DNA of 64,000 bases from Polytrichum commune (taxonomy: Eukaryota > Streptophyta > Polytrichopsida > Polytrichales > Polytrichaceae), in contig OX485808.1 of NCBI GenBank assembly GCA_950295325.1, positions 42,986,527-43,050,526 of the forward strand. Reading direction: 5' to 3'. Below the pieces are notes generated by a model. That model made no database searches, was not told where the DNA came from, and worked only from the letters and a program-made list of their open reading frames with translations. Positions within the stretch are counted from its first letter, which is position 1; every line of letters begins with the position of its first letter. Below are positions 20,349 to 54,562 of this stretch, piece by piece. The translations under genes and the position numbers were made by a program.

Positions 20349-23300
20349 CTGTGATGGAACATTCTATCTAGGTAAATGGTACTACTCAAGAAAACCAATT
20401 GACAAGCATGGATGAACTCAACAAAGAAGTATAAGGCCAAAAATAATCCGAACCATCCAGTTGAAAAATTGGTATTAATGTAATTGGTGATACACATTTG
20501 GTGAATAATATACATTGTCGCAAAAAATATCTGTTGAAGTTAATGGAATCTATGCTAACAAAATTGTATCCACCCGCCGGGCGAAGTCGAGGATTGAACT
20601 CGATAATATACACACGCCACGAAGGAGGCAGACAAGGAAGTTTCGGACGCGCGTCCGTAACGTGGGAGGCATGCTCAAAGGTTGATTACCTCTTCAGGGG
20701 CGAGGTCCGCGCCAGCAGTGCCTCCCTCACCTGGCCCCGTCATGGGCACAGGATCTGGACGCGCGCCCGCAAAATTGTCCAGATCTTCGACCACCAACAA
20801 GGTGTCTCCAGCCGCTTGCGACCCTTGAGTATCCACGTAAGGCTGATCCTCATCTGTGGAGTCTTGGCTGCCCCGCATATGTACATCTTCATCGCCGATG
20901 GGGGCGTTGCCTTCATTGACATCCGTCTCGGCGGCACCCGCCATGTCACGTGCCGGTATCTCCTCCACTCCTGTAGGATGAGAGGAGGGCTCCTCTAGAG
21001 TGGCGACAACAAGGGGAGAGGGCGGGACAATCAACGTGGGAGGTGGATAAGCATGCTCGGGTATATAAACTGCATGGCTACTAGATGGAGGCCGCATGAG
21101 AGTCGTGGGCATGGACATGCCGGCCTCGGGAGCTGCATATACAACTTGGGGCCTTGCCTGCAAGCTCTGCATCAAGCTCATGAATTGTTGGCTCTGGGCC
21201 AAGAACTGCTGATTTTGAGCCATGAGATCAGCGTGCCTTCGAGCAGACTCCAACCTAGCTTGCTCCATCTCAGCTTGGATGGCGGCCATCTTTTTGGCGT
21301 GCTCCTCGTTAGCTTCTTGAAGCCGTTGGTCAAGCTCTTCCTTCATTCGCCTCTCCATCTTCTCGTCCAATTCGGACACTGACATCGGCTCTTTCTTCAC
21401 CTTGCCAGGTTCCGTAGGCAAGGCAGAGATGGCATTGTGAATCCTAATCTCATCCTCGTCTTCATCGGAGAGCTCCAAGACCGCGCCTTCAGGGTATTCG
21501 TTGTATGGCGTCTTGTTCCTCTTTCGTCGACTCTCACGATATAGAGAGATATCAGGCCTCAATATCAACTCTAGCACATCCCTCCCCTCCATAGGGGGTA
21601 GATCTGAATGTTGAGATCCCCCTCCAGATGAAGCGGTGCATCCGCCTTCTGCCGCAAGGTCCACATCCTTCTCGGCCATAACACCTGGAGCACGAGATGG
21701 ACCCGCAGTTGAGGGAAATCCAACTCGAGAGGTGGGAGTCCCAAAAGGTGAGAGAACAGGGGTATGAGGGACCCTTATCGGAGTGAAGTTCACGCGTGCC
21801 TCCTGCGCATCCGTGTCGTCTGTTCCTAGCAGGAAAGCACTTGGATTAATTGGGTCGCGAACAAGGCCGTGTAAAAGCTCCTGTGTGGAGGGCTGCGCTC
21901 TTGGGGAACTGGGATCCTGGTCCTCTTCAGGGTCTGTCTCCATTCCGGGCATTGCCTCTTCTCTAGAAGAGAGAGGCACAACAGGATGGGATGTAAGGAC
22001 GTCCATGATGTCCTGGATATCCATTTTGGAGGCCATTACCCTATGAGTATGGGCGTCATCGTAGTCGGAATCCTGCACAAAAGAATTCACCTGCAAGCCA
22101 AGCATCTAGACCATAACAAGAAAATTAGATAAGAACAATTGTGGTGATTGTATATAAATGAGGCTAGATGTCAACACATTATACGGACGCGCGTTCGTAA
22201 AACCACCACTCAAAAGTTGGACAATTTTACAGACGCACGGTCGTAAAATTCACATGCACCTAGTACTGTAAAATAACTATGCAAAAGATAGGTGGGTTGA
22301 AAGACAAACAAATACTCACCAATGCTGCATACATAAACTTCGTGCCTCCGAAGACGTTGTAAACTGTCTCACTCATGACAGTTAAAGCCTTCAAGACCCC
22401 TATATAAAAGTCCATCCGGAGCTCGAACGCCGGATAGATTGCATGCATTGTCTCCTCAACAAGCTCCTTGGGATGTGGTGGCGGCAACGAATAGACTTTC
22501 CTGAACACCTTGTGTGGTTTAATGGGCAATCGTCCAGTTGGGGAAGACTTGCGTGTTAAGAAATAAAGCTGCACAGCTCCCACTTGCTTCACCCCCCTTG
22601 CCTCTTGAATGACAGTGATCCCTTCTGTCTTCGCTGGGATGTAGGTGTTGTGGTACATATCGTATTCGAGGTCCATCGTTGATGTGTACAGATGGACAAT
22701 GGATGTGGACCTCTCTTGCTCTACAATCCATAACCACACATGAGGCTCGAAGAGGGCAGGCGAGCGATAGCTCTTGAAGGCTTTTAAGAAGGGCTCGTAG
22801 AAGGGTGCTCCCGCAACGTCTTGCTTCCAAGCTCCGGGAATTGCACGAAAATAAAAAATGACGAAAGGGCAACCCCTGGGGTCATCTCTCACAGAGGCTC
22901 TTGAAGCATGGGTGTCCCATGTGCCGAACTTCATGCCCTTTCTGACCGTGCAGAGTCTTGCAAACCCTCCAAATTTCGCGTTCTTTTTCCTATCGAGAAA
23001 GTGAACGTACAACCCTGCCTCCCTCTCGTCGATGGATCCCTTATTTTCGTTCCTTCTGGATCGTTGGGCAAGGAAGGATGATGCCCCTCTTATCAAAGCT
23101 CGCATTGAGACGCCATTGATGTGGTATTCACCCTTCAGCTTCCTCCAATTCTCCCACACGATCTCACCATCACTATTAATGAAGTTGTGGGTGGGTAGCA
23201 ATTTGCTAATCTCCCTTACAGCCATGGTCTTCTTCTTTCGGTAATCGCACCATTCCTTAATGTGGTACGTTGATGGCTTCATGTGCTTCGGCCGCTTCAG

Positions 23301-25052
23301 AAAGATTTTGGGATAGGGCAGAGTTCTTCTAGGAGTTTCTAGAAGAATGTGTTGTGCTGCCCTGTACAGCTCCGAGTCCATCAATCCTTGGAAGGGACGA
23401 AAGAACTCTCGCAGGATTGGTGGTACCTTAATATTTGAATCGCTCTTGTGCGTATTCTCCGTATCTGGATTCACAAGGTCCCCGTTGTTGTGGGCATCGA
23501 AGAGTCGCAACCATATTGCCCATGTCTCCTCTGTTGCAGTGATGAGCTTGAGTTCACCCTTTAATTCATGCACTGTCTTCATGCCGCTTGTCTTCATGTC
23601 TATACTCGAGAACTTTGTCAAGATGACATTGCTGAATGTCTGCAAGAGGCATGAATTGCAAGAAATCAGTACATCGAAATTAGCAGACATTAAATTCAAA
23701 GAATTGAAGCAGTGGGAGGAGAAGGGCCAGGTTTACGGACGTGCGTCCGTAAATATATATGAGTGACATACCTGCCATTTGGGGTTCTTGACAACTGCAT
23801 TGTCTCTTTCTTTTGGGGGACATTCGTGCTCCACCCACAAGGTCCTCCCAGCCACGATGTTAGCTGCCCATGAAGCCTCGAACTGCCTCACTTTATTCCC
23901 TTGGTTCATGAAGGTTGATATTGCTATGAGCTGGTTCGAGTCCTTGGAATGCACGACGAATGTCTTCCAATATCGGATTGTCTCCTTTAATGGGTTTTTC
24001 CACTCGTCGTCTTCAAGGAGAGCCTTTGCAGCCATTACACTATGTTGGCCGTCGACAATGTAGAACTCTCCATTCTTGAGAATCGGCCAATTTTTTTCGT
24101 TCACTTCAACGATAGGATCCTTAGGTGTGACGCAAATTGTCTGCCTGTCAAATTTGGGGTTGTTCATTTGCCACCATACCCCGCTCTCTTCTTTCGCTCT
24201 GGTATTCATACTTTTGGTGCCCTTGTGGCATTTGTAGATGTCTGCGTCGAAAGTGAAATACCTGCCAAGCGGCCAGCAACCCTTTGTCTTCTCATCGAAC
24301 TCTTGGAATATCTTTGTGGAGAGTTCGGCGTCAGGACATTGACATTTTTTAAGGAGAGGAGCGACAGTGAGTGTTGAGCTGACATCTGGGCCCTCTGTTA
24401 GCCCTAATGACTCCATCTGCGAGTGAGAGTGTTTACTCGTCTGTCTGCTCCCTCTTGATGCACCACTCTGCGAGGGCCTTGAGGATTCCGGCACAGGTTT
24501 AGGGACACGCTTGGGCCGTTCAGGAACGACTTGTTTCTTTTTCTCCTTCCCATTTTTGGCCTCTAGCAAGGCCCCATTCACTCTTGTAACATTGTTCAAG
24601 AGTCGTCCAAGCCGCTTACCCATCCAAGGTGTATTGCATGCATAGTCTTGGAACTCCGTCTGGAGATTGAAGCAAGCCGCATCGGGACTACCATTTTCAC
24701 ACTCATTTTTGTTAAAGGGATGGTAAGATTCGTGCAAAATGAATGTGACTCGATCTTCTTTCTTCTCAAGGTCAATTACTACATAATCCCCTTGGGCCAC
24801 TGCACACTCTACTGTCCACGATTTAAGTTTTAGCCACTTCTCCACATCATCTATGTCCGTCTTAATTTGGTAGGCAAATCTAAGCACAAATATCTATTTT
24901 TCGTCTTTCTCTACCAGTACTGTCCAATTATCTACAATGTCATCTTGTGGCTTGTAGTGGTCGTTGGGGCTGATGTCTTTGATAGCTTCTGGCAGCGGAG
25001 GAATGAGAGCCTCTGCGAACATCTCAATTGCGGGTCTCTTTTTAGATGCCAT
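19581..25052 (-). CDS. E1 gene A: DGQH/ParB-like domain fused to FCP1-type HAD phosphatase (one nonsense codon)
   Basis: Four coding exons, 25052-23772, 23639-22320, 22105-20690 and 20348-19581, all phase 0, about 1,594 residues. Each starts after a TTGCAG/CTAG/CACAG acceptor and ends at GTATGT, GTGAGT or GTAATC; the same structure holds in E2. Exon 1 has EFYIVDGQHSVMAAKALL, a RYWKTFVV strand and ISTFMNQGNKV, the layout of DGQHR/ParB-Srx proteins. Exon 2 is a large conserved block of unknown fold (FGGTKFMYAAL at its end). Exon 3 is acidic/Pro-rich with a coiled coil (EEHAKKMAAIQAEMEQARLE). Exon 4 is an FCP1/NIF domain with FDLNGVLC, VIIWSS and NTLLIDDSPAKS. The second motif-I Asp is Asn, as in some plant family members, so phosphatase activity is uncertain. 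A TAG at 24894-24896, about codon 53, breaks exon 1 where E2 has Gly. Probable role: DNA-binding or regulatory protein of the element. Confidence 0.8.
20638..23754. repeat. palindromic motifs in the three introns of E1 gene A
   Basis: Half-site TTTACGGACG with inverted CGTCCGTAAA, spacer CG. Copies at 20641-20660 (intron 3), 22181-22200 and 22226-22248 (intron 2, second one degenerate), 23732-23753 (intron 1). A further degenerate copy lies in exon 3 coding sequence near 20757-20777. Confidence 0.85.
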
Positions 25053-25104
25053 CTGCAAAAATAAGATAGACAACAAGTTAGTATTGTGGTCAATGGATAA
25101 AGAT

Positions 25105-25975
25105 CCTAATATACGAACGCGCGTTCGTAAAGATTGCGTATTCTGTCATCTAGGTATTGTATATTCAAATGAAAACATCCAGTTGTAGTGAATACGCATA
25201 GCGCGTACACTATATACTCAAATATATGAAGAGGTTATGGACGCGCGTCCGTAACTCCTGCACATATAAGATAGAAAAGAATTTGCTTACTTATATATGC
25301 ATAGGTTACGGACGCGCGTCTGTAAACTTTCTAAAATATTTTATATTTGTATATAATATCTCTAGAAGTTACGGACGCGCGTTTGTAACCTCTACACATA
25401 TATGATAGAAAGGTATTTGGTATAATAGAAAGGGATGTAGTTTCTTAGAAAGGGATCTGCTTTCTTAGAAAATAATTTGCTTTCTTATATTTGTTTTCCC
25501 TAGTTTACGGACGCGCGTTCGTAAACTTTTTAATATATTAAGGTGTGAATTTTCATTTCTAGAAGTTACGGACGCGCGTCCGTAACCTCTTCACATATAT
25601 TATATGATGGATTCTCATATTGTTTTGCCTAGTTTACGGACGCGCGTCCGTAAACTTTGCAAATATTTTATGCTGGAGAAGATCGTAAACTTTTTAATAT
25701 ATTAAGAGGTGAATTTTCATTTCTAGAAGTTATGGACGCGCGTCCGTAACCTCTTCATATATATTATATGATGGATTCTCATATTGTTTTGCCTAGTTTA
25801 CGGACGCGCGTCCGTAAACTTTGCAAATATTTTATGCTGGAGAAGATCATCCTACTTAAATCTCTGGAAGTTACGAACGCGCGTCCGTAACCTCTGCACA
25901 TATTGTGTGAGTGTCTTGTTTCTCACTCGCACAAATGTCCCTAAAATTTACGGACGCGCGTCCGTAAACTTTAAG
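25105..25975. repeat. E1 palindrome array upstream of gene A
   Basis: Eleven copies of the E1 palindrome, near 25111, 25234, 25303, 25369, 25504, 25565, 25634, 25729, 25798, 25870 and 25948. Two flank types alternate: GTTTACGGACG... and AGTTACGGACG.... A 165-bp block (25550-25670) is repeated at 25715-25835. The array lies just upstream of the gene A start, in or near a 5' intron: an acceptor TTTTTGCAG directly precedes the ATG. Confidence 0.95.
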
Positions 25976-28900
25976 GAATTTCTTATTATTCTAAATTTAA
26001 ATATTTGGGGAGATTCCGTATTTTGCGGAGGCTTACCTTGTCTTCCAATATGGTTTTGATCAGCAAATGCGAGTGCAATATACTCTGCACTGCAATACCA
26101 GACTCTGCAATCAAAAGTACCAAAGGAATTCAAAAAGTATTGAAATTGGAATCTCACTTGCTCTCAGTGTTGTTGCAGCTCATATGTTTTCAAGCAAACC
26201 TTAAGCCCTAAACCACAACAACGCAATCATACAAAATGAAATTGCAATGTTATAGAAATTCTTACCTTTGTAGAATGTTTGCTCCTAAACCACAACTCTT
26301 CCTCGTGCTGCAGGTAGGACCAACTGCAAATTTACAATATAATTCAGGTTACAAACCTCTAGTAATTCTATGTACACATGCATGATTCAATGCAACTGTT
26401 GTTGCATACTCTTTCAATGCTCTCTAAGGAAATCATCTATGGAAGAACAACATTTAGAAGTACTGCAATACAGTCTACAACAAGTTGCTCATAAATCAGA
26501 TTGAAACATTTTGATATGTATGCAAAAAAAACAATGAACTACAAATTGAAGCTACTCATTTTGAATTGTCAAAAACACATGCTTCAAGATGAAAGGGGGG
26601 GAAAACTACTCCAACCCTAAAACCTTGCAACAACTGAAAGTACTCCTAGAGCATCCTAATGGGCAGCAGCATGCAAGAAACTTACTCACGCTCTGAGGCG
26701 CCTCCGCAATTGACCAGCAAGAATGGGTTTTGCAACAAGAATGAGAAGAGCAGCAAGAATGGGAGCAGCAATAATGGGAAGGAAGAGCATCAAGAGAAGG
26801 AAGAGAAGTAAGAGAAGGAAGAGAAGGAAGAGAAGAGTAGCAAGAGCATGAAGAGCAGTAAGAGAAGTAGGAGGTAAGAGAACTAAGTCTGTGAGGTAAG
26901 AGAACTAATAGAACTAAGTGTGTGAGGCAAGAGAACTAAGAGAACTAAGTGTGTGAGGTAAGAGAACTAAGAGAAGAACAGCAAGAGCATCAAGAGCAAC
27001 AACAACACGAAGAGCAACAACAACAACAGCAAGAGAAGAACAACAAGACCACGAAACAAAAACGCGAAGAGGAGGGCGAAGAGGAGCTGGTGCACTTTGA
27101 AACCCTAAAACAAAAGAGGGCCTCCCCTAAACCCGTCCCCAAATGTCACATCAACCCCGCGCCCAAACGCCACCTTAAACCCTTACGTGGCATAACCCTA
27201 CTGGTACAACAAGTGGTATAGACTCTCATCTTTCTCAATAAACTAGTCTATTTGTGTGATTTATACTTAGTTCATTGATGTTATTATCATATGTCATAAT
27301 TATTGAATAGTGCCAAGTGCTGATACTTAAGAGAATTGTGCCAAGTGTTGGATGAACAAGGCTTCCTAAATCTTTTGGTGGCACTAATTCATAGCGGTAT
27401 AGTATCACCTTCACTAATTTCCCACCCTCACTTTTAGGCCACCCTCACTAATTGGGATATTTCGTGTATTTTTGAAATGATCTTCAAGTATGACATAATG
27501 TCATGATTGGAATCTCCACTAACTATATCATTGAAAGACATGTCAATGGTTGAGCAACAAATACACCTTCAATCCTAGAGTCTTATATGTAGATTACTAA
27601 ATACAAGGGTACGCTTCATGAAAACATCATTTTTATTCATAGCATGTAACTCAATTAATGATTGCACCAAACAAACAATGACAAGAGCATACTAACTTGG
27701 CCACAATCCAAAGAGAAAAACTCAAGGTAGTCCATGACCGCTGCAAGAGCCTCTAGTTTGTAACACCTAAATCCCAAATGCAAACCTTAAAAAAAGTGGA
27801 CAAGACAATCATTGAGGACTTTGATCATATGACAACAATGGATGAAATTATAAATTGCACGAAACTAACAAGCTAATTGACCCTTTTTTTCTCTAAAGCT
27901 TAGGGATGTACACACTAGAGAAAAATAATACCTCTCCATTATGTATACTATGTGCACCAAGGCCTCAAATAACACCCCTTCTTACACGCACGTCAGTTCA
28001 TACGTGGTATGAATAGTCTATCTCCCAGTGCAAGTTCCCAAGATATATGATGTTTGCATGCAACTAATTAGAAATGTTTACTAGTCGCCAAATTTTTAAA
28101 AAAAAAATTGGTCACTTGATTGTTGGAATCCTTTTGTAATAACTTGCTTCAAATAAAAAATAAAACCCCAACCCACGGAACTTTTTTTTAATCTAATTTA
28201 TGATTATTTTTGCACGATGCTCCAACTGCTGAACGTCTTGACACAAAATTCATTTTTGTAAGAAAACCTTGCCCAATACACTTGCACTGCCCATATCCGT
28301 GTGTTAGAGTCCTATAAAACTTATGTGTGTGCACTCTAACATGAGCATGCTCATGTCAAAGTGCTCATGAAATAACCACCTCCGTTTTCTATACTAAAAC
28401 ATGAGTTGATGCCCAAAATTTTTTGGTCAAATCCTACTTGACAATCTAATGAGTTGGCTCATTTGTCTCAAATATAAAATGAAGTGATTTGTCAACAATT
28501 GGTATTAGTGCCCTTTCTTGCCATTAATCATCATGACCTTGCTTTGGGTTCCATTGGCCGTGCTTGTATTTTTGGCAAAGAATTGAAGCTCTTAATGTGT
28601 CTCAAAAAGACAAAAGAAAGAAAAGAAATTGTCATAATTCCAACATACTTACTTGCTCACAGTGAAGCTAGAAGAGGGCAAAGGTCTAGAAGTTTTAGAG
28701 TACTACACTAAATCTGATATTTAGTATGATTCACCAATTCTAATTGTCTTGCTCAATACTAATTGTAAACTGTAGTATAGTGTCATGAATGCTAGCCCAA
28801 CATTATTTAACATTCCTTGTAAAAGAACTTGGGGGATTATAGATTTACAGTGTTGCAATTATTACCAAGTATCACTGACCAAGTCATTTTTCATCCAAAA

Positions 28901-31140
28901 TTCAATCATCCATGACAATATTTTATCACAAGTTATTGACAAGAGACGGTATGGTTTTGGCCAATGGATGAACTCATCCATCATCCATGACAATATTTGT
29001 AAAGTTATTCATAAGACATGTCATCCGTGAAGTTGCCATAGTGATATTGAATATTGTATGACACTAAATATCATATTTAGTGTACCCATGTTGTGACTAG
29101 TATTTGTTTCAGCTTAATTAGCAAGCATGGTTATTTTCCACTTAACACTACTAAACCCTTGTATTTCCAACATTAGGCTTATATCGTCCTCTCTTACATG
29201 ATCTATAGACTATAGTATATGGACATCCACGGTAAATTTCAGGTCAACAAAATAATAAATTTCTTTCTCTGGATACAGTACATCTACAAAATTACAATAA
29301 CCATTCACTACAATAGTTTCCAAAACTACTCTAAATATTGTGTATAGTGTCATAGGGGCATTCTAGGTTAATGTGGTAACTTTTCTAAGTGGACTTCAAG
29401 TTAGGAATAAGTTTACAAATACTGTCATCCCAACTTACTTTTAGTTCATCCACTTTTGGTGTTATCTGCATCCCAACATTTCTGTAATGAAATATTGTCA
29501 TGAATGATTCAAATTGGATAAAAATTTGCTTAGTTTTAGTGATAGTAATCATAACATTGTGAATATGTAATCCCCCAAAAATTTACAGAGAATGACAAAT
29601 AATGTTAGGTTCACATTTAGTCTTGGTGACAATCTGGAATGTCATGTGCCAACTCATGCCATGTGAAATAATCATGTTAGGTTTATATACTACTGTGAAA
29701 TTTAGTGTAGTTCCCTAAAGTATGTTGGAAGAACTAAGGGAGTACCTGGTGCTAGTGGTACCCATATATGTTTGCATTGTTGGTTTTGTAAGTCAGCAAA
29801 TTGGGAGAGATGGATTGAGAAACGTTGTTTCATTTCCATGCATATTTGTAGGGATCATTAGATTGTCAAGTGAATGACAATTCATTATCATCGTCAAGAA
29901 TAGAAACTCAACATAGAAGCTTGTGTGGGGCGCAAGCACCGTGAAGTGGCCATGTCTTGATCTTTGCACATGTTTAAGTGAAAGTTATTCAGAAGCAAGG
30001 TGAAGAGGATTAATGAACGTCTTATAAACTCAGTGTTTAATTAGAAAATTTGACAATCATGCTTGTTGTATGTCATAAGTTCCATGACCGTATGAATGTA
30101 AAAAATTAGAAGTACGACCAGTTACTAGATGGAAATAACATGATTTAAGAATGTGATGTCGTGACCTTCATTCACCACAATCTAGCCAAAAAATTTCATC
30201 TATCTCAATATCTTCAAAAGTAAAACTAAAAGTAGAAAATAGAAAACAAAACTTAATGTAGCTAGATGTTAACTTTCTTCTTTTTGTCTTAGTGGCCTTG
30301 TATGTTTTGACAATGAAATGAATTTATTCCATTGGTCTCTTTGATACAAATTAAAGCAAACTCTAACAAGATAGAAGAGATGCTATGAATATTGCAACAG
30401 TTGACCTTTGATTTCATAGACATGTAATGGAGCTCTTGCTGACATAAGGATTTGCTTACTGCACAGTCTTTCTTCACTCCAAATTAAGCCTTTAATTACA
30501 TGAAGAAGGCTAGTATTAGTTTTTTTGAAATAAATGTTGATGTATTGAAGGGGGCCCTAAGGTTAAGAGAGGTAATTGACAATATTGATTTTAATGCAAC
30601 CCATAGTATCTATGACAATAGATGTGTTACTTTCATGGCCTCTAGGCGCTCAAAATTTGTGTACGTATTAATACAATAATATATAGGTGTGTAAAGGTGG
30701 GTAAATTAAACGGGTTGGATGGTAGGGTGGTGGCCAATGTAATTACGATATTAAATGCAAGATGAGAGGAGATAACATGATATTGGAGTGAATATCATTA
30801 CATCGTATGCAAAACAATAAAATAGATGCTAGTTTAATTTTGAATGACATGTATTTTTATTCTCCATGTACTATTGTTGTTGTTGTGGTTAATGTTTTAC
30901 ACGATACTATAATTTTCTGTCTACTAATTCTACAATGAACTTTCAATATTAGGTACTTCAATATTAAAACCCCCCCTCAACAATGTTCAATGTTCATATC
31001 TTATTAGCCAATTTTCTTTGTTGTCCACCATAAATATGTAGATGCCTTTTGCTTTGTCATTATGTGGACTCATGGTCTAAGCATGTTGTCTACTATGAAT
31101 ACACATTCCATTGTAAGGCTGGCACACGGAATGTAGTAAT
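25976..31140. other. non-coding middle of E1
   Basis: Lies between the divergent 5' regions of genes A and B. 26690-27080 is low-complexity purine-rich repeat (aagagcaagagaa, caacaacaac). The rest is AT-rich with no frame over 90 codons that looks like protein. It probably holds the gene A promoter (about 26.2-26.7 kb) and older insertions. E2 has a shorter, unrelated-looking middle. Confidence 0.5.
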
Positions 31141-31490
31141 GTTAGGTTTTTATTTATAGGACGTAGTTGGTGGCTAGTATCCTATGTTGGAAAACGGATC
31201 CAAGGGAAAACGATGAGTACTTAAGGGGACATCCCCCCACCAAGGGACTCTTTTTGCATCTCAGATGTGGGTTGCGCTGCTTGGACCCTTGTAGCGTGCT
31301 GGATGTTTATTTTGTGCAGGTACAGATCCTATTGCAATGGATCTTTTATACCCCAAACACTAAATTCCAAGCTCTAAACCCATTAGTGGAGCCAATTTTT
31401 ATGTGGATTGCACTTAGTATGATTGATTTTTTTGTTTATGGCAGGTATCGTTCCTGGTGCAAGGTTCCTATTATGTCGCCGCAAATCGCG
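31140..31490 (+). promoter_or_regulatory. E1 gene B promoter / 5' exon block
   Basis: Shares short conserved blocks with E2 45165-45410: ATCCAAGGG, GAGTACTTAA, a C-run, CTCTTTTTTGC, and CGCCGCAAAT just before the first palindrome. A TTTATTTATAGG element lies at 31149-31160. Conservation among mostly diverged non-coding DNA suggests promoter and leader of gene B. Confidence 0.45.
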
Positions 31491-32640: not shown

Positions 32641-32782
32641 ACCAATGTGTCTTTGTTTCCAGGCCATGAAATCCACTATTGTTCACATTGTGTTTTATTG
32701 ACAATAAGCATTAGGACTATCCATGACATTTATTGAATGGGATATTTTGACATACTCTTCATTTGGATCACTTGTAGTGGCC

Positions 32783-37370: not shown

Positions 37371-37454
37371 GCATGCGGTAGTCTCAAAGATGAGTTACCT
37401 CGTCATCGGAGGGAGGGGCAGCGGCGCTGGATTGAGCGGCAGCTCCCTCCTCAA

Positions 37455-42295: not shown

Positions 42296-43420
42296 AGCCT
42301 GTTGTTTGTTTTTATATATATAATTAATAATAACAATATAGTGTCCGTACATATACGAATTCGTATACATACGTATGGCAAGGTCTTGCTTGCTGTGTCT
42401 CAGCAAAGCTTGCACTTGTGCCTGCAAGTGTTCGTCAGAAAGGTGAGATTGAAGAAAAACAATACAATCAAAACATATAGACTTGGAATGTGACAGAGAA
42501 TTCAGAATGAGGATCCGAACTTGACTTCCAAAACACATGCCATTCAATAATGAACAAATATAGACTGTGAAGGATTTGAGAATGGAAGGAATATTGTGCT
42601 TACTCTGAAATTTTACACACCCAAAAGCTGCTTGCTCCCTTGTTGAAAACCCCAAGAAACCCCACAAAAGCAAGGTGATTTGAAAGTCAAATGCACCACT
42701 GCACCACTGAAATTGCCTTCACACTAGTTGTTGCATGCTATGTACAAACCCTAACTAAGACTCTGATGTATATGCAACTTCAAATGCAATATCTCTCAAG
42801 CTGCTACTCTAAAACTTGCAATTATCAAGCTTATAGCTTGAGTATCCTAATCTTAAGCTTCCAACTCTCAAGCTTTAAACTCTACAAACTTTAAACTCTC
42901 CAACTTTCAACTCTTCTAACTCGAGTTCTCTATTCTTAAGCTGCAACTCTCAAGGGACTGTCAATAACTCTCAACACTTGCGCCTACAAAAGAAGTGCAC
43001 CACACAAAACTAAAAAACGCAAGAGCTTCGTCTCTAAACTCTAAACCAACGCGGCGCTCCTCCTCTCTCTGCTCCAAATGAGAATGAGGAAGGAGAGGAG
43101 GGGGCGCGGGGAGGTAGCCCGCGCCTCTAGGGTTTTCCCTCGGGCTGCCACATGGCCGCTTCCCATTGGGGAGGGAAGGGATGGGTCGGGCTAGGAAGAT
43201 GAGGGGATGGGATGGGGAGATAGCATGGGGTGTGGGATGGGTGGATGGGGGGAATGGGTTGGAATTCATTGGGGTTTAGTAATTCAATGTAATCAAAGCA
43301 CATAAATATATTCAATGTGACTTAATAAAGTGATTTGCATGGGGGGCACTAACCGATTTGACATAAATATATGTCATCACAATAAGAAATGCAACTATAT
43401 ATTACACCATTTGCACTTAG

Positions 43421-43455
43421 TTTGAGACTTTCCCAACTCTCTAATTAACGAAAAT
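43421..43455 (+). repeat. relic of an E-family right terminus
   Basis: TTTGAGACTTTCCCAACTCT then CTAATTAACGAAAATA resembles the E1 right end (TTTGAGACTTTCCAAAGTCT then CCAATTAACGAATATA) in the same orientation. No matching left end is nearby. Confidence 0.5.
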
Positions 43456-43923
43456 AATCTAAGTTGGATGTATAAGCAATAAAGGCATGTTAATTTCAAG
43501 CTTTTTAATATGTATATACCTCCATCACATAAACATAAGGAGTCCAATACAAAACATGCATTTTAAATGCTACATCCCCTTCATCTACTTTGGATACATT
43601 GTAAACATCTTCTAGATAGGGAGTATGAATTCAATTTCCACATTGCACATCATGTACTAGGGATTCGATGAAAACCCTACCCCCAACGATGTGTATTAAT
43701 ATGGTGTTTTCAAATATATAGTGTTTTCATAATTGAAATATCTTTCAAGTTTTTAAATGGTTCCTCAAATAATTTAATATAAGATCCATAAAGGTCCCGA
43801 TTTAAGATTGGTGGGAACGGTTTAGGATTTTCTTACAAGAGGTGCAGGAAAATTCAATTTCAAATACTAGGCTTTCAATTCAGTTTATTATGTGTGAACT
43901 TGAACTACTGCATTAAATTTATT

Positions 43924-44165
43924 ATTATATTTGTTAATCAGAGACTTTGGAAAGTCTCAAAATAAATGCAAATGATTTAATATGTGGTTCAAATTCTTAT
44001 TCGGATGAGATGTATTTGTGCCAAATTGGTTAGTGTTGCCCATGCAAATCGCTTTATTGTGTCACATTGAATGTATTCTTGTGTTTTACTTGTTCTTTAT
44101 TTGAATACCATGTTCTGAAATAGTATCCAAAATCATGAAAATGTCCCCAATTACCGAATATGGTG
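43924..44165 (-). mobile_element. about 240-bp deletion derivative (MITE) of the E family
   Basis: One end (TATATTTGTTAATCAGAGAC then TTTGGAAAGTCTC) matches the E1 right terminus, including its small hairpin. The other end, read on the minus strand (ATATTCGGTAATTGGGGAC, then TTTTCATGATTTTGGATACTAT in part), matches the E1/E2 left terminus. Both ends without genes in 240 bp indicate an internally deleted non-autonomous copy. Confidence 0.65.
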
Positions 44166-44336
44166 ATATTTCACCCAATGGTCGTTGAAAGTTTGGCTCG
44201 CATCAAATGTAAGCTACAAATAAATTAAGTTAGTGCAATATGGATTTATGAGTAGTGAATATAGTTTGTATGTAAACCCTGTTATATGAACTACTAGACA
44301 TGCACATCCCTCACAAACCCTAAACCCATACCCATA

Positions 44337-44355
44337 CCCTAAACCCTAAACCCCT
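44337..44355 (-). repeat. interstitial telomere-type repeat
   Basis: CCCTAAACCCTAAACCCC, just over two plant telomere units, preceded by degenerate copies (acccataccca). Confidence 0.8.
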
Positions 44356-44689
44356 AGTTTTTTTTACCATCCGCACTATATGGGGGAATGTTGTGATCCA
44401 ACCTAATAGTGTTGAGTGCATTTTAATTATACAATGCATAAGTGGGACTCCATATAGGTATGGTTTCAATTCATATCATTACACTATCTTATGCACCATT
44501 CCAAATTAATTCAACATTTCCACACAATGTTGAATCAATTCACTATTTGCAAACCTGGAGTTGCATTTGAATTAAGATATAAAGTATATCTAGGCATGGT
44601 TTGAATTCATCTCCTTAATCTACCTTAGTAGCTTGCATGAATTCACCAGACTTTTTATTGGTGTTCATGCACTTGGTGAGTATTTGCCG

Positions 44690-45015
44690 CAATAATGTAC
44701 ATAAATGTAATGTACATAAATGTAATGTATATATATGTAAAGTATAGATATATGTAAGAAACAAATATATAGATATATAGATATATAGATATATATTCAC
44801 ATATATAGAGATATATAGATATAGATATATATTCACATATATATAGGTATATAGATATATATTCACACATATATATAGGTATATAGATATATATTCACAT
44901 ATATATATAGGTATATAGATATATATTCACATATATATTCACATATATATATAGATAATTAGATATATATTTACATATATACAAATATATATATATGTAA
45001 ATATATACATCGATA
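44690..45015. repeat. cryptic AT-rich tandem repeat
   Basis: Repeated ATATATAGGTATATAGATATATATTCACAT units of about 38-44 bp, grading into plain (AT)n-like sequence. Open frames across it are compositional artefacts. Confidence 0.85.
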
Positions 45016-45164
45016 TGTATATAGGAATATACATTTTATTTTTTGGTTCGGGAAACCTTGGTAACACCTAAGGTGTGGAACGGATGAACATATTATCAAT
45101 GCGTGCATGCCATACATATTCAATACAGAAAATTATTTATGTCCCGCATGAATAGAATGGCATA

Positions 45165-45405
45165 TTGTTAGGTTAAAGTAGGCGGCGGGAATCCGCTTTT
45201 CAAAGAGAATCCAAGGGATTTTGAACCACGGTAGAGGAGTACTTAAAGCTCTCCCCCCCATTGCAGAGCTCTTTTTTGCGGGAGACACCAAGTGTGCGCT
45301 CCAGACACCCGACGGAGGGCGCTCGAGCCAGTTTCCTGTGCGTGAACCGTACACTCATAGGTGGCAGACAACCTTATCCCGTAAATACCGCCGCAAATAC
45401 CGGGG
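45165..45405 (+). promoter_or_regulatory. E2 gene B promoter / 5' exon block
   Basis: Counterpart of E1 31140-31490: ATCCAAGGG, GAGTACTTAA, a C-run, CTCTTTTTTGC and CGCCGCAAAT appear in the same order and end at the first palindrome of the array. Confidence 0.45.
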
Positions 45406-46560
45406 ATTTACGAACACGCGTTCGTAAACCTGCAGTGCGCGCATGTGTTTGTGGATGAGATATATCGAGGTTGGTTGGATGTTTACGAACGTGCGTTCGT
45501 AAATACCGCCTTGGCATATATGTACATCCATTAATGTATAGACCCATATACGATTATGCATAGGCACAGACAATATGAAAGTCATATACGAACGAGCGTT
45601 CGTAAATGTACATTTTGGGCATCCGCCGAACATTGGGAATGTGCAAGAGTTTACGAACGCGCGTTCGTAAACCTGCGTAAACCTGCAGTGCGTGCATGTG
45701 TTTGTGGATGAGATATATCGAGGTTGGTTGGATGTTTACGAACGTGCGTTCGTAAATACCGCCTTGGCATATATTTTACATTCATAAATGTATAGACCCA
45801 GATACGATTATGCATAGGCACAGACAATATGAAAGTCATATACAAACGAGCATTCGTAAGTGTACATTTTGGGCATCTGCCGAACATTGGGAATGTGAAA
45901 GAGTTTACGAACGCGCGTTCGTAAATATTGAATGCGCGTAAACGGAGTATGGTACATACTGAAATAACATTAGAGTTTACGAACGTGCGTTCGTAAGTGA
46001 CACCGCTTATTTTCAGAATCCATATACTCATGCATATAAGGGGTATGAAGATGTACATACAATACGATAGTAATTTGCAAACAGAAGGTCAAAAATATCA
46101 ATGATTTCAGCAGATATACATAAGATGAGCGAGAGTTTACGAACGTGCGTTCGTGATTTGCACCTGGGAGTATGTCGATGCATACAGCACGCCTCCCTGG
46201 GCACGCACACAAATATATATGTATTTACAACAAAATATGAGACATAAATACGAACGTGCGTTCGAATTCATTCAGGGAATGTATCTAGACATTGACTGCG
46301 GGATGTGGGAAAATGCTCCATTTGCTCCACATACACATAGTATGGGCGAGGGATGTGTATTTGGGGCACATGGAATAATACATTCATATGCGTCAATGAC
46401 TCTCGGAAGTTTTGTGTACGCATATAACAGGCATCCCTGCACAATTGAAACGGTCCATGTTTTAGTTGACATACAGAATGACGGGGAACATTCGAACGCC
46501 CGTTCGTATATATGCCCAACTCAAACAGAAGCGTGTCTGCATGCAGACGATCGTTCTGTT
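45406..46560. repeat. E2 palindrome array upstream of gene B
   Basis: Copies near 45407, 45482, 45586, 45650, 45734, 45839 (degenerate), 45904, 45975, 46137, 46247 and 46490, with spacers CG, TG, AG, CC and others. A 252-bp block carrying three of them is tandemly duplicated (45430-45680 versus 45682-45930). It ends about 100 bp before the gene B exon. Confidence 0.95.
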
Positions 46561-46657
46561 ATTCCCACTGTGACTTAGGTTTACTAAAATCTTGTCGTAT
46601 TTGTGATTGACTTAGATATGTTGTAATTCCATGTTCGCGTCATTAGGTGGGTTTGCG

Positions 46658-49600
46658 ATGGATATGGGAGATAGTGCATTTGAGTTGTCGACGAATGCAT
46701 CATCGTCGGATACGGAATGTCGCCTCTCTTCGCCTTCGGAGGATTATATTCGAGGGGCTAACGTCCTGGGTGTGTCTGGGGATACATCCTCCCATGAATC
46801 TTTGGAAGGGCAAGAACATTCCCAACATTATGGGGATGATAACGACCACATTCCATTGTGTGCCGGTTTCGGGAGGGAGCAGTGGGTGGGCCTTGATGTT
46901 GTTCTTCTGAACGAGCATGGTGTCCCTGTGGCAAATGGCATTTGTAGAAACTCCGATCCCCTTGAATGTATTGATGCCAACCCCCTTGGATTGGATGATG
47001 TTGGCGTTTGCATCTTGAATTCTTTACTTCCGTTGGAAGTCCCGTTGACTTGGAGATTTTCCTTGCGGCGATGGCCCCTGCGTCGAGTTCTCCATGAAGA
47101 AGTAAGCTTGTGGGATCATGGGCGACGGCACAAGCAAACGCAGTCAGCTTTGTTGGCCGCAAGACGTCCTCGCAAAGGTCTGCGCAAATACGATTCTAGT
47201 CGCGTGTCTAGCATACAAAAATAACGTAGACGGGATTCCATACTTGGAGAGGACTCTATCCGTCAAGTATCCACAAAGGACTGTTGTGCGAAGAAATGTT
47301 GTCAATTCTTTCCGCGTGAAAAAATTAGGTCCCTTCGGCAAGAGATGTGGCTTGCGGATTTTTGTATGAGGTCGGCAAAAAAACTCGAGGTCCACAGAAA
47401 TTTGCACGTTGACAGCCATGGCAATAAGGTGGTTACCCTTGAGAATGTGGAAGTGTGTTGCACAGCATGGTATTCCATCCATGCAGTCTCCAAGGCTGAT
47501 TTTTATAGGTTTAGGAAGTATTCTTTGTTGGGACGCCGTTCTCGATTTCATGGCAACTCGGGCACCAAGAAACCTAGAGAGGCTACACTCCAAGCCTCCG
47601 CGACACTCTCCACCATCATAGTCCCGTTGGCCGATGCAATACCCCACAAGACGAGGACATTGTCCTCCGGGGAGAAAGTTGTCCAAATGGTGTTGCCCAC
47701 GGGCACAAAATGGAAGAACATCTTAACGGACATAAACGAAGTGGGTCGCAAAGCTAGGTGTGGGCCCATTTCTTTGTCCAAGTTGAGTGTAATTAAAAAC
47801 CAACAGTTTGCGGAGTACATTTTGAAGAGACCCGGGGACAAGTTTGTCAGGTGTACGACGTGTGAAAAGTACAAAGGTCTTTGAGACGCCCATCCTATAG
47901 GCACCGAGTCCCATACAAGACACCAAAGAAAATACATTGAGCATGTCAACAACCAGGAGGCACACCGTCAAGATTACTACAAGAATCGTGCACTATCCAT
48001 AATGAGGCCTGCGGAGGTCCTGACTGTCATCCATGATAAAATGGACCATGCCAAAACCGCATGCCCTTGTTATGCACGCAAAATTAAAGCCACGGATGGT
48101 CTCTTCAAGTTGCCCGTAGCTGTCACAGGTTCGTATGGAATCACAAATGTGTTTGAAAGGATTTCCAATGTTTTTGGGTTTGTTTGCCATATGTCAAACT
48201 TCATCCGTCTGTTTAGTGGTTATACCATATTTTTGTTGTTCATCCATCGTTTTTTTTTCTCAGGTATGATCGCCCACGGCCATGAGGACGTTAAATATGC
48301 CCATTATGGTTTGGATTTTTACCCTGGCGATGCCAACCACACGGTTGGTTCATTTGCAAAACTCTTGCGTGATCTTGAGAAGCTGCCGATTCACTCTTCC
48401 CGTGCGCTTTTTGATGGTTGTGGAACGACACCCCTTTACGAGGCAGTGCTTCAGGGGAAGGAGGTTTGTATGTCGGCATTGCCGGAACCACGTGGAGAAC
48501 CCATTTGTGCAAAACCATTGCCTCCAACTCTCCATGTTCACGGGGAGGTCACTCAATAGGATTTTTGTATACCACGTGCGGCGGAGGGGTATTTGTTTAG
48601 GGGCTATTTACCTCCAAGGCACGAATTAAAAGCTCCCTATAATTACATAATATTCTAAAATGGCCTATTTTTTTGTACCCTACCATTACTTATAATGCCC
48701 ATGTCATTGAAATTTTTTGTAGACTATATTCCTTTTAATTAAAAAAAATGAATTTAAAAATGTATGCAATGCAAAAGTGATGGGAAAAGCATGGCAACAA
48801 AAAAATATAAAAATTACGTACCATTGCAAAAACCAAGTACAAAAACTTAAAGTGAAAAACTTAAAGTGGATCGTTTCAGACCTGCTCTTCAAGGTTTCCG
48901 CATCAGATCACGCAGCCTGGCTAAAAAACTCTACACAAGATTGGAGAAGAGGATGACGACAAGCAATCCTAAACCCTAAACACAACAGTGAGGCTCAAAT
49001 GTTGTGCACAAACAGGCGCCCTACAATCGGGTTGAAGAGTTTCAAAAGAGAAGGGGAAAAAAACCACCAAGAGAAGTCTGGCATAGAGTTAGGCTTCCAA
49101 TTTCATCCATTTTTGGGTGAATGATGAGTAATATTTCATCCATCCCTCGTGAGGCATGTGTACAAAATTGATTCTACTAAACATACATCCTAAGATTTTT
49201 ATTTTCAGCCCCTATATTATTTTTACTAAAAGGGAATGGCCCATATTTTATACCTATCTATTTTACTTGTAATGGGCTTATGTACTTTTAATGGACCCTT
49301 CATTATTTGGATTTTTTTTATAATTTTTATGTCAAATGATTTTAATCCTCCCTATATTATGCCGCACGTCGTTTTTAAAATGCACTAAGTGACCTCCCCG
49401 TGTCCATGTTCAACTTGATAATTGTGTTAAAGACAACAAATGTCGATATGTGTTTTGTTTTTGGTCATTGCTTGTGGCAAAAGGTATATTCAAAGAGGTG
49501 TTTGTGTCTTTCTTGATGGTGGGGCACACACACGATGACATTGATGCGTCATTTGGACGTTGGAGCATGAAGTTGCATGAAGAGGATTTTCCCACCATAC

Positions 49601-49937
49601 CGCTTCTTATGAAATCATACATGGATTTGGACAATGTGCCCGTAATCCCGCACATGATTGAGGAAGTACCAAATTTCAAGGCCTTCATCAAGCCATACAT
49701 GCTGAAGGGAGAGGACCGTTTGGTGGGACACACGAAAGCACAACAATTCCGCTTCTATATGAGGGATGATGGTGTCCCTGCTATGCAGTTTAAGCTTTTG
49801 TGCACATCTCCTAATTGGTGTCTGGAGGATGGGATACTCGTGTGGCGTTAGAACAAGGATGGAAAATGTTTGCTCCCGGATGGGGATCCAAAGCCTTGTA
49901 AACCCGATCCCATGAAGAATGGGCCGGAAATCATCAA
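46658..49937 (+). pseudogene. E2 gene B: DUF7869-type protein, disrupted and truncated
   Basis: Collinear with E1 gene B: ATG at 46658 after a CATTAG acceptor, exon 1 to 48128, intron 48129-48263, exon 2 from 48264 (GMIAHGHEDVKYAHYG). It keeps DCCAKKCCQFFP, HDKMDHAKTA and GHTHDDIDASFGRW. Lesions: TAA at 47222-47224, TGA at 47882-47884 and TAG near 49848-49850, all explained by single C-to-T changes relative to E1 codons (CAA, CGA, CAA/CAG). An 864-bp MITE is inserted at 48539, and the last roughly 250 codons are missing at 49937. Non-functional. Confidence 0.9.
48531..49410. mobile_element. 864-bp hAT-like MITE inserted in E2 gene B
   Basis: The element 48539-49402 has perfect 15-bp terminal inverted repeats (CACGGGGAGGTCACT) and is flanked by an exact 8-bp duplication TCCATGTT (48531-48538 and 49403-49410). 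An 8-bp duplication and CA-start ends fit the hAT superfamily. No coding capacity. Removing it rejoins HVQLDN of gene B. Confidence 0.9.
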
Positions 49938-51294
49938 AATGGCCTTATTAACTAAAATGAGCCAATTGGTCCGCTCAATTTAATGTAGGGAACGTGTTGG
50001 GAACGTAATGATTACATGCTAGTACGAGAGAATACCCGTTGAGGGTTCTTAAAATACAACTCAACGATCCCAAATGAGCCCCACACATGTTTATAAAGCC
50101 ATGCAAATAATGAAGTATAATATGGAAGATCTCATCAATTGTGAGTCACGAAGGATTGTGCTTACACTCCACGGGTGAATCCTCGTGGGTTGTTTGGGAC
50201 CACCATGCACATTGGATGACTCCCATACATAGAGAACATATTTCCAAAATATTACAATGCACATGAAAGTTCACATCTGTGATGCCAAAAAAAAGTGGTC
50301 ATGTAAACATCCCTAGGCAAATGTCAATGTCTAGGGCTCCCTAATTCATCCACACATTTATCAAAAATGAGCATCAAACATGATGATCAATGTCCACCGA
50401 GGGCGCCCACCACGGGAGTTCACCCGCGGATACAAGAATTGATGAATGCATATCCAATCTACATGAATTCTGTTGATACCACATCCTCAAATTGATCTCC
50501 ACTAGTCATATGCTCACCTCTTGTGCATCGATCTAAATTATCCTTGGCAAAAAGAATTTGCCTCGCTAGGATGACCACATTGTCATCGGACGCATTCTTT
50601 TGTCTTGCCCATGATGCCACAACACAATCTAGAGATTGACGTGTTGGAGCATATTCCTTGAGCCTCGTCCATCTGAAATGTTTTGCCGTGTCCCATTCCT
50701 CATAACGTTCATCCAAGGTCTTCTTGTTCCTGGTCCCAAGGACCGGCACATAGTACACAATCTCAATGCATGGAACGAGCATGAGGACCGACATGTGCCA
50801 AATTAGGCTCGGAAATCACTCGTCCCATCCAGACTGGATTAGCACAATCCTCACTAGGACGTAGTAAGACATAATGGCCGACCCTGATATGTGCACCAGG
50901 TCGAAAGGTCTCTGCGGGTCGAACACTAGCTGGTCCGACATAAGCATAGTCCGTGATGTTTTCCTCAAATAGATGCTCATTGTCCACATGTAGGGCAGCT
51001 GCAATGGAGAACCGTGTAGAAGGCCAAAAGGGCTCGCTAAGTTCAGATGGAGATGGAGATAAAGGATGATCCATAGCCGCAAGCACATTCTCCCAATATA
51101 AAATTGTTGGTGCAATGGACTGCATATATTGACCGGAAGTATCTTGATCTGCCGTATCCTTCCAATACTTAATAAAACCTTTCAGTCCAAGCTTTATGTT
51201 CATAGAATCTTTCATTTCCCTTTTTGGAACAGGACGGGGACAACCTACAAAAACATACATACATAGAGCTTAGAGCGAAACCATGAACTAACGG

Positions 51295-51316
51295 CCCACG
51301 GGCGATCACCCGTGGG
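51295..51316. repeat. palindrome in the E3-specific intron of gene B
   Basis: CCCACGGGCG, spacer AT, CACCCGTGGG, within the 140-bp intron 51245-51384. Further degenerate copies lie in the 3' flank near 50163 and 50397. Confidence 0.85.
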
Positions 51317-53818
51317 CCACATGCATCACACCTTGTATTTTGTAGTGTACTTCCAAGAAAACATTGTTAATGAAGCCCACTAACTTGGTGGGAACATGGT
51401 TTTCTTTGTGACAGGGTCCACATTCCATAGAGCAATTCCACCTTCTGGCGCCCAACTTGCATCTGTACAAAACACTTTGTATTGCATCAATGGCACTCCT
51501 TCAGGGTCTACATAAAAACGGAATTGGTGTGCCTTGGAGTGCCCTATAAGTCGGTCTTGACCAAACTCATGGTAGTATCCCTTCACCCATTCCTTGAAAT
51601 CAGCAACCTCATGAATCAAGTATGGGACAATAGTGGGATCCCCAGCTTTCATGAACGATGCCATGAGGTCTGGGAGTGTATGGCAATCCTCAATCTTCAA
51701 CCTTTGTCCAAACCGGCCGAACATTGCATCCACATCCTCATGCGTATGTCCAACAATAAGGAAAGACACCCGGACTTCACGAAAGATTCCCTTTGCGGTC
51801 AATGCAGACCAAAACAACATGTTGTATTTTGATTTGTTATCCTTCGCACAATTGTCCATCTGAATAAGCAAGAGGGGTGGCAACCCCGTAGGTGGAATAA
51901 TTTCGAGCGATGGCAAAGGAAGTGCTCCTGAACACTTCTCTACGCCAACCACCAGTGCGTCGTGCAAAGGGTCGCCTATGGTGGAAATCGGAATGTGGCG
52001 ACTGGAGCAGACCGGCGGGACCTCAAGTTGACAAAGCAACTTCATAATGGATGTGATAGTGAAGTTCGCATCCGATGGGTACATATCAAGAACATAATGC
52101 GCATAATTCACATCAGAGTGACCATGCGCAATCATTCCCGCAATGGAGATCGGGAAACGCTCATATTTGTCAACACGTTTGTTTTTGTGCGCAAAAACAG
52201 GAAGCGCCGTTTTCCCATAATCCATTTTGTCATGTATGATACAAAGGACCTCTTTCGGAGAGTACTTTGACAAGATCCTATCTTTGTAGTAACTGTTTCT
52301 ATGAGCCTCTTGCAATGCCAAATGCCGATGGCTAGCCTTCGAGATGGCCAAGTACCCGGTAGTGTTCTTTGTGTGTATTCGCAACAAATCCTTGAAAGAA
52401 GCGCAAGTTCCACAACGCGAGAAGTTGTCCCCAGGGCTCTTAACAACATATTGCTTGAAATGTTGTCAATGTAAGCGGCTAAAACTTGACATTGAGACAG
52501 GCTCGTACCCGAGGTCTTTGTCCAAGTTGTTCACTTCGTCCAGTAGGTTGGACCAAGTTGTTCCCACAGGGAGCATCTCCGTACCTATCTTTTCACCATT
52601 TGGAAGAGTCCGAGTCATATGGGGCATGGAATCCGCTCTACCCTCAATCAACACGCCAAGAGTCGCTTGTGCCTGCACTGTATTCGCCCTCGGCTTTCTG
52701 GTTCCTGTATTACCATGATCTCGAGATCTAACCCCCATCTGGCTGTTGGCCTTATTCCTATTAAATTGTGCCCTTGATATCATGTAGATGTTCCTCCATG
52801 CACAAGTGCAAATTGTTCTTCCTTCCACTACAACCGTTTCCCTACCCGTGTGCTCTTCCTTCTGGATCGTTTGGAACACTGCAAGGGCAATGAGCTTCCG
52901 AGCATTGAAAGGCAAGGCAAAGTAGTGTTCCCGAATACTAACCAACAAAGGCCTTGGAAATACCTGGCAACAATGCTCCTTGCAGCAATCCACCGTGGAT
53001 AACATCCGTGCTCCTTCCTCAGTGGCCCCCAAAGTTTTCTTTCCAGGTGCCCGAGGTGCACATATCCTCAAAGTGTTGTATCGGCGTTTTCCAAGAAAAC
53101 GCCGCCGACTCTCATCTTCACGGGTCACGTTATGATGGACCAACAATATCTCCGCCAATGTGTGTCCTTCAAATTTTGTAAGTGAGAGCGGCCAGCGGTG
53201 CAGAGTATTCTCCCAATCCATCAAAATCACATGTCCAGTTGGGTTCAAGATAATTACTCCAACATATTCATCGCCAAGGATGCTATTGTCAACACAATCT
53301 AGCGGATTGGTGTTGCATATTAACCCATCACACAAGGCATGATCCTGATCATCGAAGAGGACAACCGCCTTACCCTTCAAATCCTTCCTCGACAATCCAA
53401 CACAATGCGGAATCTGAATGTAAACATTAAAGTATATCAGTCCAGAATGTCACTCTAGTCAGAACACATATCATCACGTAGTCCTTTAATAGTCAGACCT
53501 CCCATACTCATAGCTCAAACATTAATGAACGCCACATTGACTTCGAATTGCAAGGTCACATTCACTATGCGCACTAAGTTCCAATGTCAATGATATCATC
53601 GCAACCAACATTGTAATACATGTGTCAACTCCCACTGCATAGTCATATGTCCAAGATTGAAATGGACAACATCCCAACAACTAGTTCTTAGTCCTACAGA
53701 AATAGGCATGTAAGCATAATTATAATTCCCGTGAAGAAACAAGCCATGCATATGGAATAACTTATTTGTACAGATAAGCACCTAGCATTAAGCATAATAA
53801 AAAGACAACCCCGGAGCC

Positions 53819-54415
53819 ATCCACGGGCGAACGCCCGTGGGAGCTCCCAAGTGGTGGGCGGCGCCACCCACGGGTGAACGCCCGTGGGATCTCCCAAGTG
53901 GTGGGCGGCGCCACCCACGGGTGAACGCCCGTGGGATCTCCCAAGTGGTGGGCGGCACCACCCACGGGCGAACGCCCGTGGGATCTCCCAAGTGGTGGGC
54001 GTCTCCACCCACGGGCGAACGCCCGTGGGAGCTCCCAAGTGGTGGGCGGCGCCACCCACGGGCGAACGCCCGTGGGATCTCCCAAGTGGTGGGCGTCTCC
54101 ACCCACGGGCGAACGCCCGTGGGATCTCCCAAGTGGTGGGCGTCTCCACCCACGGGCGAACGCCCGTGGGATCTCCCAAGTGGTGGGCGGCGCCACCCAC
54201 GGGCGAACGCCCGTGGGATCTCCCAAGTGGTGGGCGTCTCCACCCACGGGCGAACGCCCGTGGGTTCTCCCAAGTGGTGGGTGGCACCACCCACGGGCGC
54301 ACGCGTGAGATGCATCTACTTCGGTTGTAATTTTGTGGCCCCCACGGGTGCACCCGTGAGATGCAACTACTATTGTGTCCAGTGCATTCTCACGGATCCA
54401 CGGGTGCACCCGTGG
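53819..54415. repeat. E3 palindrome array: 47-bp minisatellite in intron 1 of gene B
   Basis: Ten complete 47-bp units start at 53821 and repeat exactly to 54244, with a partial unit at 54291. Each holds CCACGGGCG-AA-CGCCCGTGG followed by GATCTCCCAAGTGGTGGGCG. Two spacer-less copies (CCACGGGTGCACCCGTG) follow near 54342 and 54395. Because 47 is not a multiple of three and the unit lacks stops, all frames stay open across it; these frames are not genes. Confidence 0.95.
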
Positions 54416-54561: not shown

Positions 54562-54562
54562 C

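Follow-up and report, generated by a model that had tools for sequence, protein, structure and literature searches.

The window analysed here is a 64,000-nucleotide stretch of the Polytrichum commune genome (assembly GCA_950295325.1, contig OX485808.1, positions 42,986,527 to 43,050,526 of the forward strand). It contains three nested DNA transposons, E1, E2 and E3, with E1 lying within E2 and E3 within gene D of E2, and each carries repeated palindromes of its own type, made of two 10-base arms around a 2-base spacer. An earlier note on this DNA, made from the sequence alone, proposed that the palindromes are binding sites of a dimeric, element-encoded protein that co-diverges with its sites. 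A survey of the window and of the genome leaves co-divergence of palindrome type with an element-encoded protein as a well-supported reading, for which the best candidate is the predicted product of a divergent gene that we call C-B-A.

Nested elements and their genes

The elements and their two main genes are as follows (bp, base pairs; E, expect value).

18272..36536 (18,265 bp), element E1, inserted in E2, with a 4-bp target duplication CCAT at 18268-18271 and 36537-36540
16302..18271, element E2, left part, which includes part of a HAD-like gene; left end AACACTATATTCGG
36537..49938, element E2, main part, which stops at the E3 insertion inside E2 gene D
49939..64000 (start about 49939), element E3, D-side part, which extends beyond the window end
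20675..25058 (- strand), E1 gene C-B-A, predicted: exon C 23772-about 25058 (start uncertain), exon B 22320-23639, exon A 20675-22105
32723..35879 (+ strand), E1 gene D, encoding a DUF7869 protein in two exons of about 32723-34196 and 34353-35879 (limits from tblastn); Pfam PF25273, E 1.5e-39, 136 bits
37384..41783 (- strand), E2 gene C-B-A, predicted: exon C 40479-41783, exon B 39030-40355, exon A 37384-38841
46631..49938 (+ strand), E2 gene D, DUF7869-type, interrupted at 48541-49402 by an insert of ~860 bp and again by E3
50483..53434 (- strand), E3 gene D, DUF7869; PF25273, E 1.4e-46, 159 bits, with a tblastn match as well

The ends of E1 read AAGGGTATATTCG and, in reverse complement, AACACTATATTCG, and the element ends read AACACTATATTCG or a close variant. 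The empty site for E1 is visible in two uninterrupted E2 copies (L065 and L067), and the E3 boundary near 49939 is placed within E2 gene D by a further E2 copy (L068) that continues across it. A second E2-type copy (L067/L068) is flanked by AAAT on either side; the target duplication is thus 4 bp in both of two cases, CCAT for E1 and AAAT for this copy. The C exon of E3 lies 2.5 kilobases (kb) past the window end (G000:C6:43052999-43054249).

Three long frames, A, B and C, stand on the opposite side of the element from D and are transcribed divergently from it. Because the junctions between them in E1 and E2 are GT-AG introns that keep the reading frame, we predict that they are exons of one spliced gene, and we reject their treatment as separate genes. 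Homology between the E3-type C and E2 C is distant (21% identity over 402 residues, E 3.6e-12). The D proteins of E1 and E3 both score above the PF25273 cut-off of 26 bits, and DUF7869 is the only Pfam match of D in these elements, with no match to a CACTA or Mutator-like transposase. D is likely the transposase of this DNA transposon group. At least 150 DUF7869 stretches occur genome-wide, and we found no mention of the domain in the open-access literature searched. A separate DUF7869 group (L035-L042, 30-38% identical to E1-E3) is without such palindromes within 1.5 kb of the domain, a lack that is weak evidence because L044 and L053 also have none there yet have arrays further upstream.

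Palindromes in the window and across the genome

The palindromes are concentrated in arrays upstream of both genes, with further copies in introns and 3' of C-B-A.

25110..25968, E1 array upstream of gene C-B-A, TTTACGGACG-CG-CGTCCGTAAA and variants, with a 164-bp tandem period in part
31495..32641, E1 array upstream of gene D, with a 97-bp tandem period in part
20640..20661, E1 palindrome directly 3' of gene C-B-A
22180..22247, pair of E1 palindromes inside the B/A intron
23732..23753, single E1 palindrome inside the C/B intron
34239..34260, single E1 palindrome between the D exons
41806..42293, E2 array upstream of gene C-B-A, TTTACGAACG-NN-CGTTCGTAAA
45407..46157, E2 array upstream of gene D, with a 254-bp tandem period in part
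36912..37369, five E2 palindromes 3' of gene C-B-A
38870..39008, pair of E2 palindromes inside the B/A intron
40394..40473, pair of E2 palindromes inside the C/B intron, conserved in all three E2 subfamilies compared
53820..54311, E3 array upstream of gene D, CCCACGGGCG-AA-CGCCCGTGGG, with a 47-bp tandem period

Exact matches to the skeleton ACGNNCGNNCGNNCGT number 42 in the window, all between 22,183 and 54,261, against 0.02 expected from 100 shuffles. The element-specific palindromes described in the earlier note therefore exist, and the arms that it gave for E1, E2 and E3 are the prevailing ones. A looser count accepting up to 5 differences in 20 gives 27 sites in E1, 29 in 36537-50400 (mostly E2) and 13 in 50401-54600 (E3); 'dozens of copies per element' is high for the part of E3 in the window, in which 11 good sites were found by a one-arm search. 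In that search a site was found by a single arm and the partner arm was read two bases away, with agreement at no fewer than 8 of 10 partner positions for 41 of 50 arms in E1, 47 of 49 in E2 and 22 of 25 in E3. The spacer does vary in E2, as the note had it (9 kinds among 24 sites), and is nearly constant in E1 (CG in 18 of 19) and E3 (AA in 10 of 11), where most sites sit in tandem arrays. One motif type per element holds for the prevailing arms only, given that position 7 is A rather than G in 8 of 38 E1 arms and that E2-like sites occur inside E1 at 25,110 and 32,620. Exons account for 48, 45 and 67 per cent of the E1, E2 and E3 stretches (limits partly approximate) and hold 1 of 27, 2 of 29 and 0 of 13 sites, respectively, the single exonic E1 site being a weak one in the approximate HAD stretch.

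Genome-wide counts were made in the 408-megabase (Mb) assembly of 64 contigs, seven of them large; four LFY-domain matches in it accord with a streptophyte, LFY not being known outside that group. The pattern TTTACGRACG-NN-CGTYCGTAAA occurs at 4,099 sites, comprising 1,147 with G..C, 2,909 with A..T (by subtraction) and 43 mixed, and the E3/E4 pattern at 853, comprising 177 with CG..CG, 644 with TG..CA and 32 mixed; many copies stem from shared amplification, and these arm counts are therefore not independent events. Reversed-pattern controls gave 0 for each of the two counts. The arms thus covary across the genome, which together with the one-arm search sustains the claim that both arms changed together.

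Two mirrored changes set the E4 family apart from E3, C to T in one arm and the matching G to A in its partner. The E4 arms, CCCACGGGTG, keep the 10-2-10 layout and were seen in the array beside D of two elements (L074 and L075), and exact E4 sites adjoin both D and C at C1:33.99-34.02 Mb and C1:48.45-48.47 Mb. Upstream of a C exon of the more distant E6 group, locus L076 has CTTCCTCTCG-GT-CGAGAGGAAG, which has 157 exact copies in the genome with varied spacers among those listed. The one shared skeleton of the earlier note is rejected as a general rule: NNNACGNNCG applies to the three window elements only, and the E4 (CCCACGGGTG) and E6 (CTTCCTCTCG) arms deviate from it.

Motif type and C-exon clade were compared among the matches listed for each, to which all clade figures below are limited. 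The clades are E1 (75-100% identical to E1), E2 (81-100%), E3/E4 (59-83% to E3, partial matches included) and the distant E6 group (23-28% to E3). A site was scored as adjoining when it lay no more than 3.5 kb ahead of the start of a C match or 4.5 kb beyond it, in the genome parts covered by each listing. The E1 motif adjoins all five E1 C exons and none of four E2, five E4-like or two E6-like ones, and the E1/E2 pattern adjoins both of two E2 C exons. The E3 motif is found beside 2 of 2 E3 and 2 of 23 E4-like C exons (0 of 16 E1, 0 of 14 E2, 0 of 9 E6-like), the E4 motif beside 5 of 8 E4-like (0 of 13 E1, 0 of 9 E2, 0 of 6 E6-like) and the E6 motif beside 5 of 9 E6-like (0 of 16 E1, 0 of 14 E2, 0 of 15 E4-like). 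No motif stands beside a foreign C clade in this cross-table, so that the tracking of element identity by motif type, on which the earlier note had staked its claim, survives in the other copies. Eight C exons of the E3/E4 clade were covered for both motifs; none has both types and one has neither. Three E1-clade genes at 76-81% identity mainly keep E1 sites, and all 30 E2-clade loci fetched have at least one skeleton match, the listed sites (at most six each) being E2-type save for a few one-base variants.

Selection maintains both the sites and the protein, as judged from an intron footprint and from codon substitution in exon C. In the C/B intron of three E2 subfamilies, identical columns make up 39 of 44 within the palindromes vs 21 of 62 elsewhere (Fisher P 1e-8); ten loci were chosen for this comparison and seven yielded the intron by the pattern used. 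Two of the three remaining loci (L021 and L022) are copies with several stops in the C exon, and one or two changes are seen in their sites. The ratio of nonsynonymous to synonymous substitution rates (dN/dS) of the C exon is 0.03-0.06 between E2 subfamilies, where dS is saturated; recent copies give 0.20-0.23. Both ranges denote purifying selection on the C exon.

A candidate recogniser and its rivals

A factor that recognises these palindromes must see both arms, both arrays and the intron copies, and must differ between families within one nucleus, which makes the element's own divergent gene the best candidate. It is quite likely, as judged from the sequence patterns, that the C-B-A product binds the palindromes. 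We infer binding, dimerisation, the identity of the binder and activation or anti-silencing as steps of the following scheme. D would act as the transposase of elements that make 4-bp target duplications, and C-B-A would encode a divergent protein that recognises the palindrome of its own family as a symmetric dimer. With arrays before both genes and copies in introns and at the 3' end, this protein would coat the non-coding DNA of the element, and its most probable job would be VANC-like, switching on its own family only or keeping it unsilenced. As a whole, a DNA transposon group in which a divergent C-B-A protein recognises its own family's palindrome in a VANC-like role is on balance the probable explanation. 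For the co-divergence itself, symmetric arms, the tracking of C clade and the two conserved intron copies speak in favour.

Several observations weigh against this explanation. In one branch of the E3/E4 clade motif type departs from percent identity: E3 arms accompany a C exon at C1:33085545 that is 71% like E3, and E4 C exons at 70-74% adjoin changed arms, so that co-divergence as first claimed holds with this reservation. No tested motif lies beside 4 of 9 E6-like and 1 of 8 E4-like C matches listed. Some sites, for instance those of E6 type at C1:32.60 Mb and of E1 type at C1:25.98 Mb, have no nearby C among the matches listed. The window copies of C-B-A each have one in-frame stop, near the 5' end of exon C in E1 and in exon B (stretch 40130-40560) in E2. 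The C, B and A frames of E1, E2 and E3-type have no significant match to a domain family and no DNA-binding domain was recognised in them at a significant level, the weak matches including YEATS in E1 C (E 0.02, below its cut-off) and a helix-turn-helix PHROG in B (E 0.13). In an E3-type copy outside the window (L073), five of six sites lie inside a long open frame spanning B and A, one of these five being probably intronic, and three encode a repeated peptide, with a PHGRSPV repeat at L073:1554-1737 in the A part. Selection on C is purifying and not positive, of which an arms race might leave the latter. Finally, the relatedness of copies by amplification makes site counts non-independent.

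Other searches bear on the nature of the candidate protein. Its last exon, A, has a coiled-coil-like stretch as judged by eye, and E2 A gives a weak coiled-coil-type match (HAUS-augmin3, E 0.006) that is under its cut-off. PDB sequence searches with C and B produced no convincing hit (best E 0.087, ascribed to chance), and AlphaFold models of C (2 sequences) and D (3 sequences) were unusable, with a predicted local distance difference test score (pLDDT) of 30.6 and 32.1, respectively. No relatives of C, D or B were found in viral contigs, nor of E1 C in phages. The C exons of E1 and E2 contain DGQHS and that of E3 VNGQYT. A reading of C as a ParB-like protein has no support in profile searches: a ParB test of E1 C gave a very weak match at DGQHS (phrog_1033, E 0.06), neither Pfam nor NCBIfam finds a ParB/DGQHR domain in C, and hhalign against the ParB-like Escherichia coli YbdM aligned away from the motif at 0.8% probability, a comparison of low power (5 sequences vs one, with two unrelated E. 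coli controls). An FGG motif in exon B resembles a methyltransferase by eye, and a class-beta DNA methyltransferase reading of this exon found no support, with no such Pfam match in the spliced E1 protein or the E3-type frame.

The first alternative is that the palindromes are sites of D itself, the putative transposase, with internal sites aiding assembly of the transposition complex. Arrays do stand upstream of D as well as of C-B-A, and a change of specificity in D could need few residues. However, D is nearly invariant between E1 and E2 and between E3 and E4, whose motifs differ, and in each pair compared it is more alike than C: E1 and E2 share 90% in the DUF7869 stretch (133 amino acids) vs 44-47% in C, E3 and E4 94% vs 70-74%, and E1 and E3 about 50% vs 22%. 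In E1, moreover, about 4 to 7 kb separate the arrays from the ends of the element, and introns contain copies too. We regard this alternative as unlikely.

Recognition by host factors, either a transcription factor or a methyl-CpG reader, with families differing through drift and tandem amplification, is still less probable. Tandem arrays do homogenise sites, which are CpG-rich, and the step from E3 to E4 is CG to TG/CA, as from deamination. Nevertheless, drift is unlikely to produce one concerted change in both arms, in two distant arrays and in the intron copies; sites with mixed arms are rare (43 of 4,099; 32 of 853), and motif type tracks the C clade. That the palindromes form hairpins in RNA or DNA (as transcript structure, small-RNA source or cruciform) with arms covarying to keep pairing fits near-perfect inverted repeats of which several are intronic, but it is the least credible of the three given that most copies per element share one sequence where pure structure would allow any compensated pair, that the spacer is merely 2 bases and that the same word is kept in the intron of diverged subfamilies.

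Recognition of the family's own palindrome by the C-B-A product has its closest precedent in the VANDAL elements, which are Mutator-like and whose VANC anti-silencing proteins carry DUF1985 and DUF287. In Arabidopsis, two reports describe the targets of VANC21 and VANC6 as a short motif that recurs, often in tandem, in introns and in intergenic and terminal non-coding DNA and that changes from one related family to another; the protein linked to the motif varies more than the transposase does, and VANC binding and loss of methylation have been demonstrated (PMC5735166; PMC10398659). The elements studied here likewise have family-specific motif repeats in non-coding DNA that vary with a partner protein, with the exception of the L073 sites in the B/A frame. 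They differ in having 22-bp palindromes, whereas VANDAL motifs are 8-9 bp and arrayed in one orientation, and in having D, a DUF7869 protein, with a 4-bp duplication (2 of 2 cases) and not a Mutator-like transposase. Pfam did not match DUF1985 or DUF287 in C, B or A of E1, E2 or the E3-type frames. Because neither the VANC domains nor a Mutator transposase was found, the likeness is not membership, and by analogy it suggests a similar role. An anti-silencing role for C-B-A, argued from the same analogy, is a plausible though tentative proposal.

The En/Spm (CACTA) elements, with TnpA, also have an element-encoded second protein and many subterminal sites, and they make a 3-bp target duplication and have a terminal CACTA. 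Membership of that group is rejected on the grounds of the 4-bp duplications CCAT and AAAT, a CACTA located two bases inside the end and no match to a CACTA transposase. Sola is a further plant DNA transposon group, of which Sola1 elements make target duplications of 4 bp. A review tabulates Sola1 for Physcomitrella (PMC9033089). The open-access literature searched contained nothing on subterminal palindromes of this kind, nor on ParB with a eukaryotic transposon, and among the matches listed for co-evolution we found nothing comparable.

More speculatively still, these elements may represent a second, independently evolved self-recognition family comparable to VANC, outside the Mutator group and in transposons unrelated to it, in which a CpG-containing 10-2-10 palindrome has been re-coded together with its own dimeric recogniser into at least five matched types (TTTACGGACG, TTTACGAACG, CCCACGGGCG, CCCACGGGTG and CTTCCTCTCG); the recogniser may then belong to a new class of DNA-binding proteins. 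Were this so, transposons would have evolved sequence-specific self-recognition more than once, and it would not be peculiar to Arabidopsis VANDALs. One genome would also hold a natural series of matched protein/site pairs, from close (E3/E4) to very distant (E6), which would permit direct mapping of specificity residues and supply DNA-binding proteins with distinct 22-bp sites.

Other features of the elements

18583..20306 (- strand), E1 HAD-phosphatase-like gene with a dullard-like domain, exons approximate; TIGR02251, E 1.8e-7, below the curated cut-off
16691..18271, HAD-like copy of E2, 61.5% identical to the E1 copy over 169 amino acids
48541..49402, insert of ~860 bp in E2 gene D
43295..44087, inverted repeat in the middle of E2, 164 bp, 81%

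The HAD-phosphatase-like gene within E1 and E2, located beyond C-B-A, is possibly a cargo gene. The insert in E2 gene D has GGGGAGGTCA/TGACCTCCCC at its ends, is flanked by a 10-bp repeat, TCCATGTTCA, and is like a small Mutator-type non-autonomous element. The inverted repeat in the middle of E2 includes, at 43926, a stretch with 93% similarity to the E1 right terminal repeat, and is perhaps a nested non-autonomous relative.

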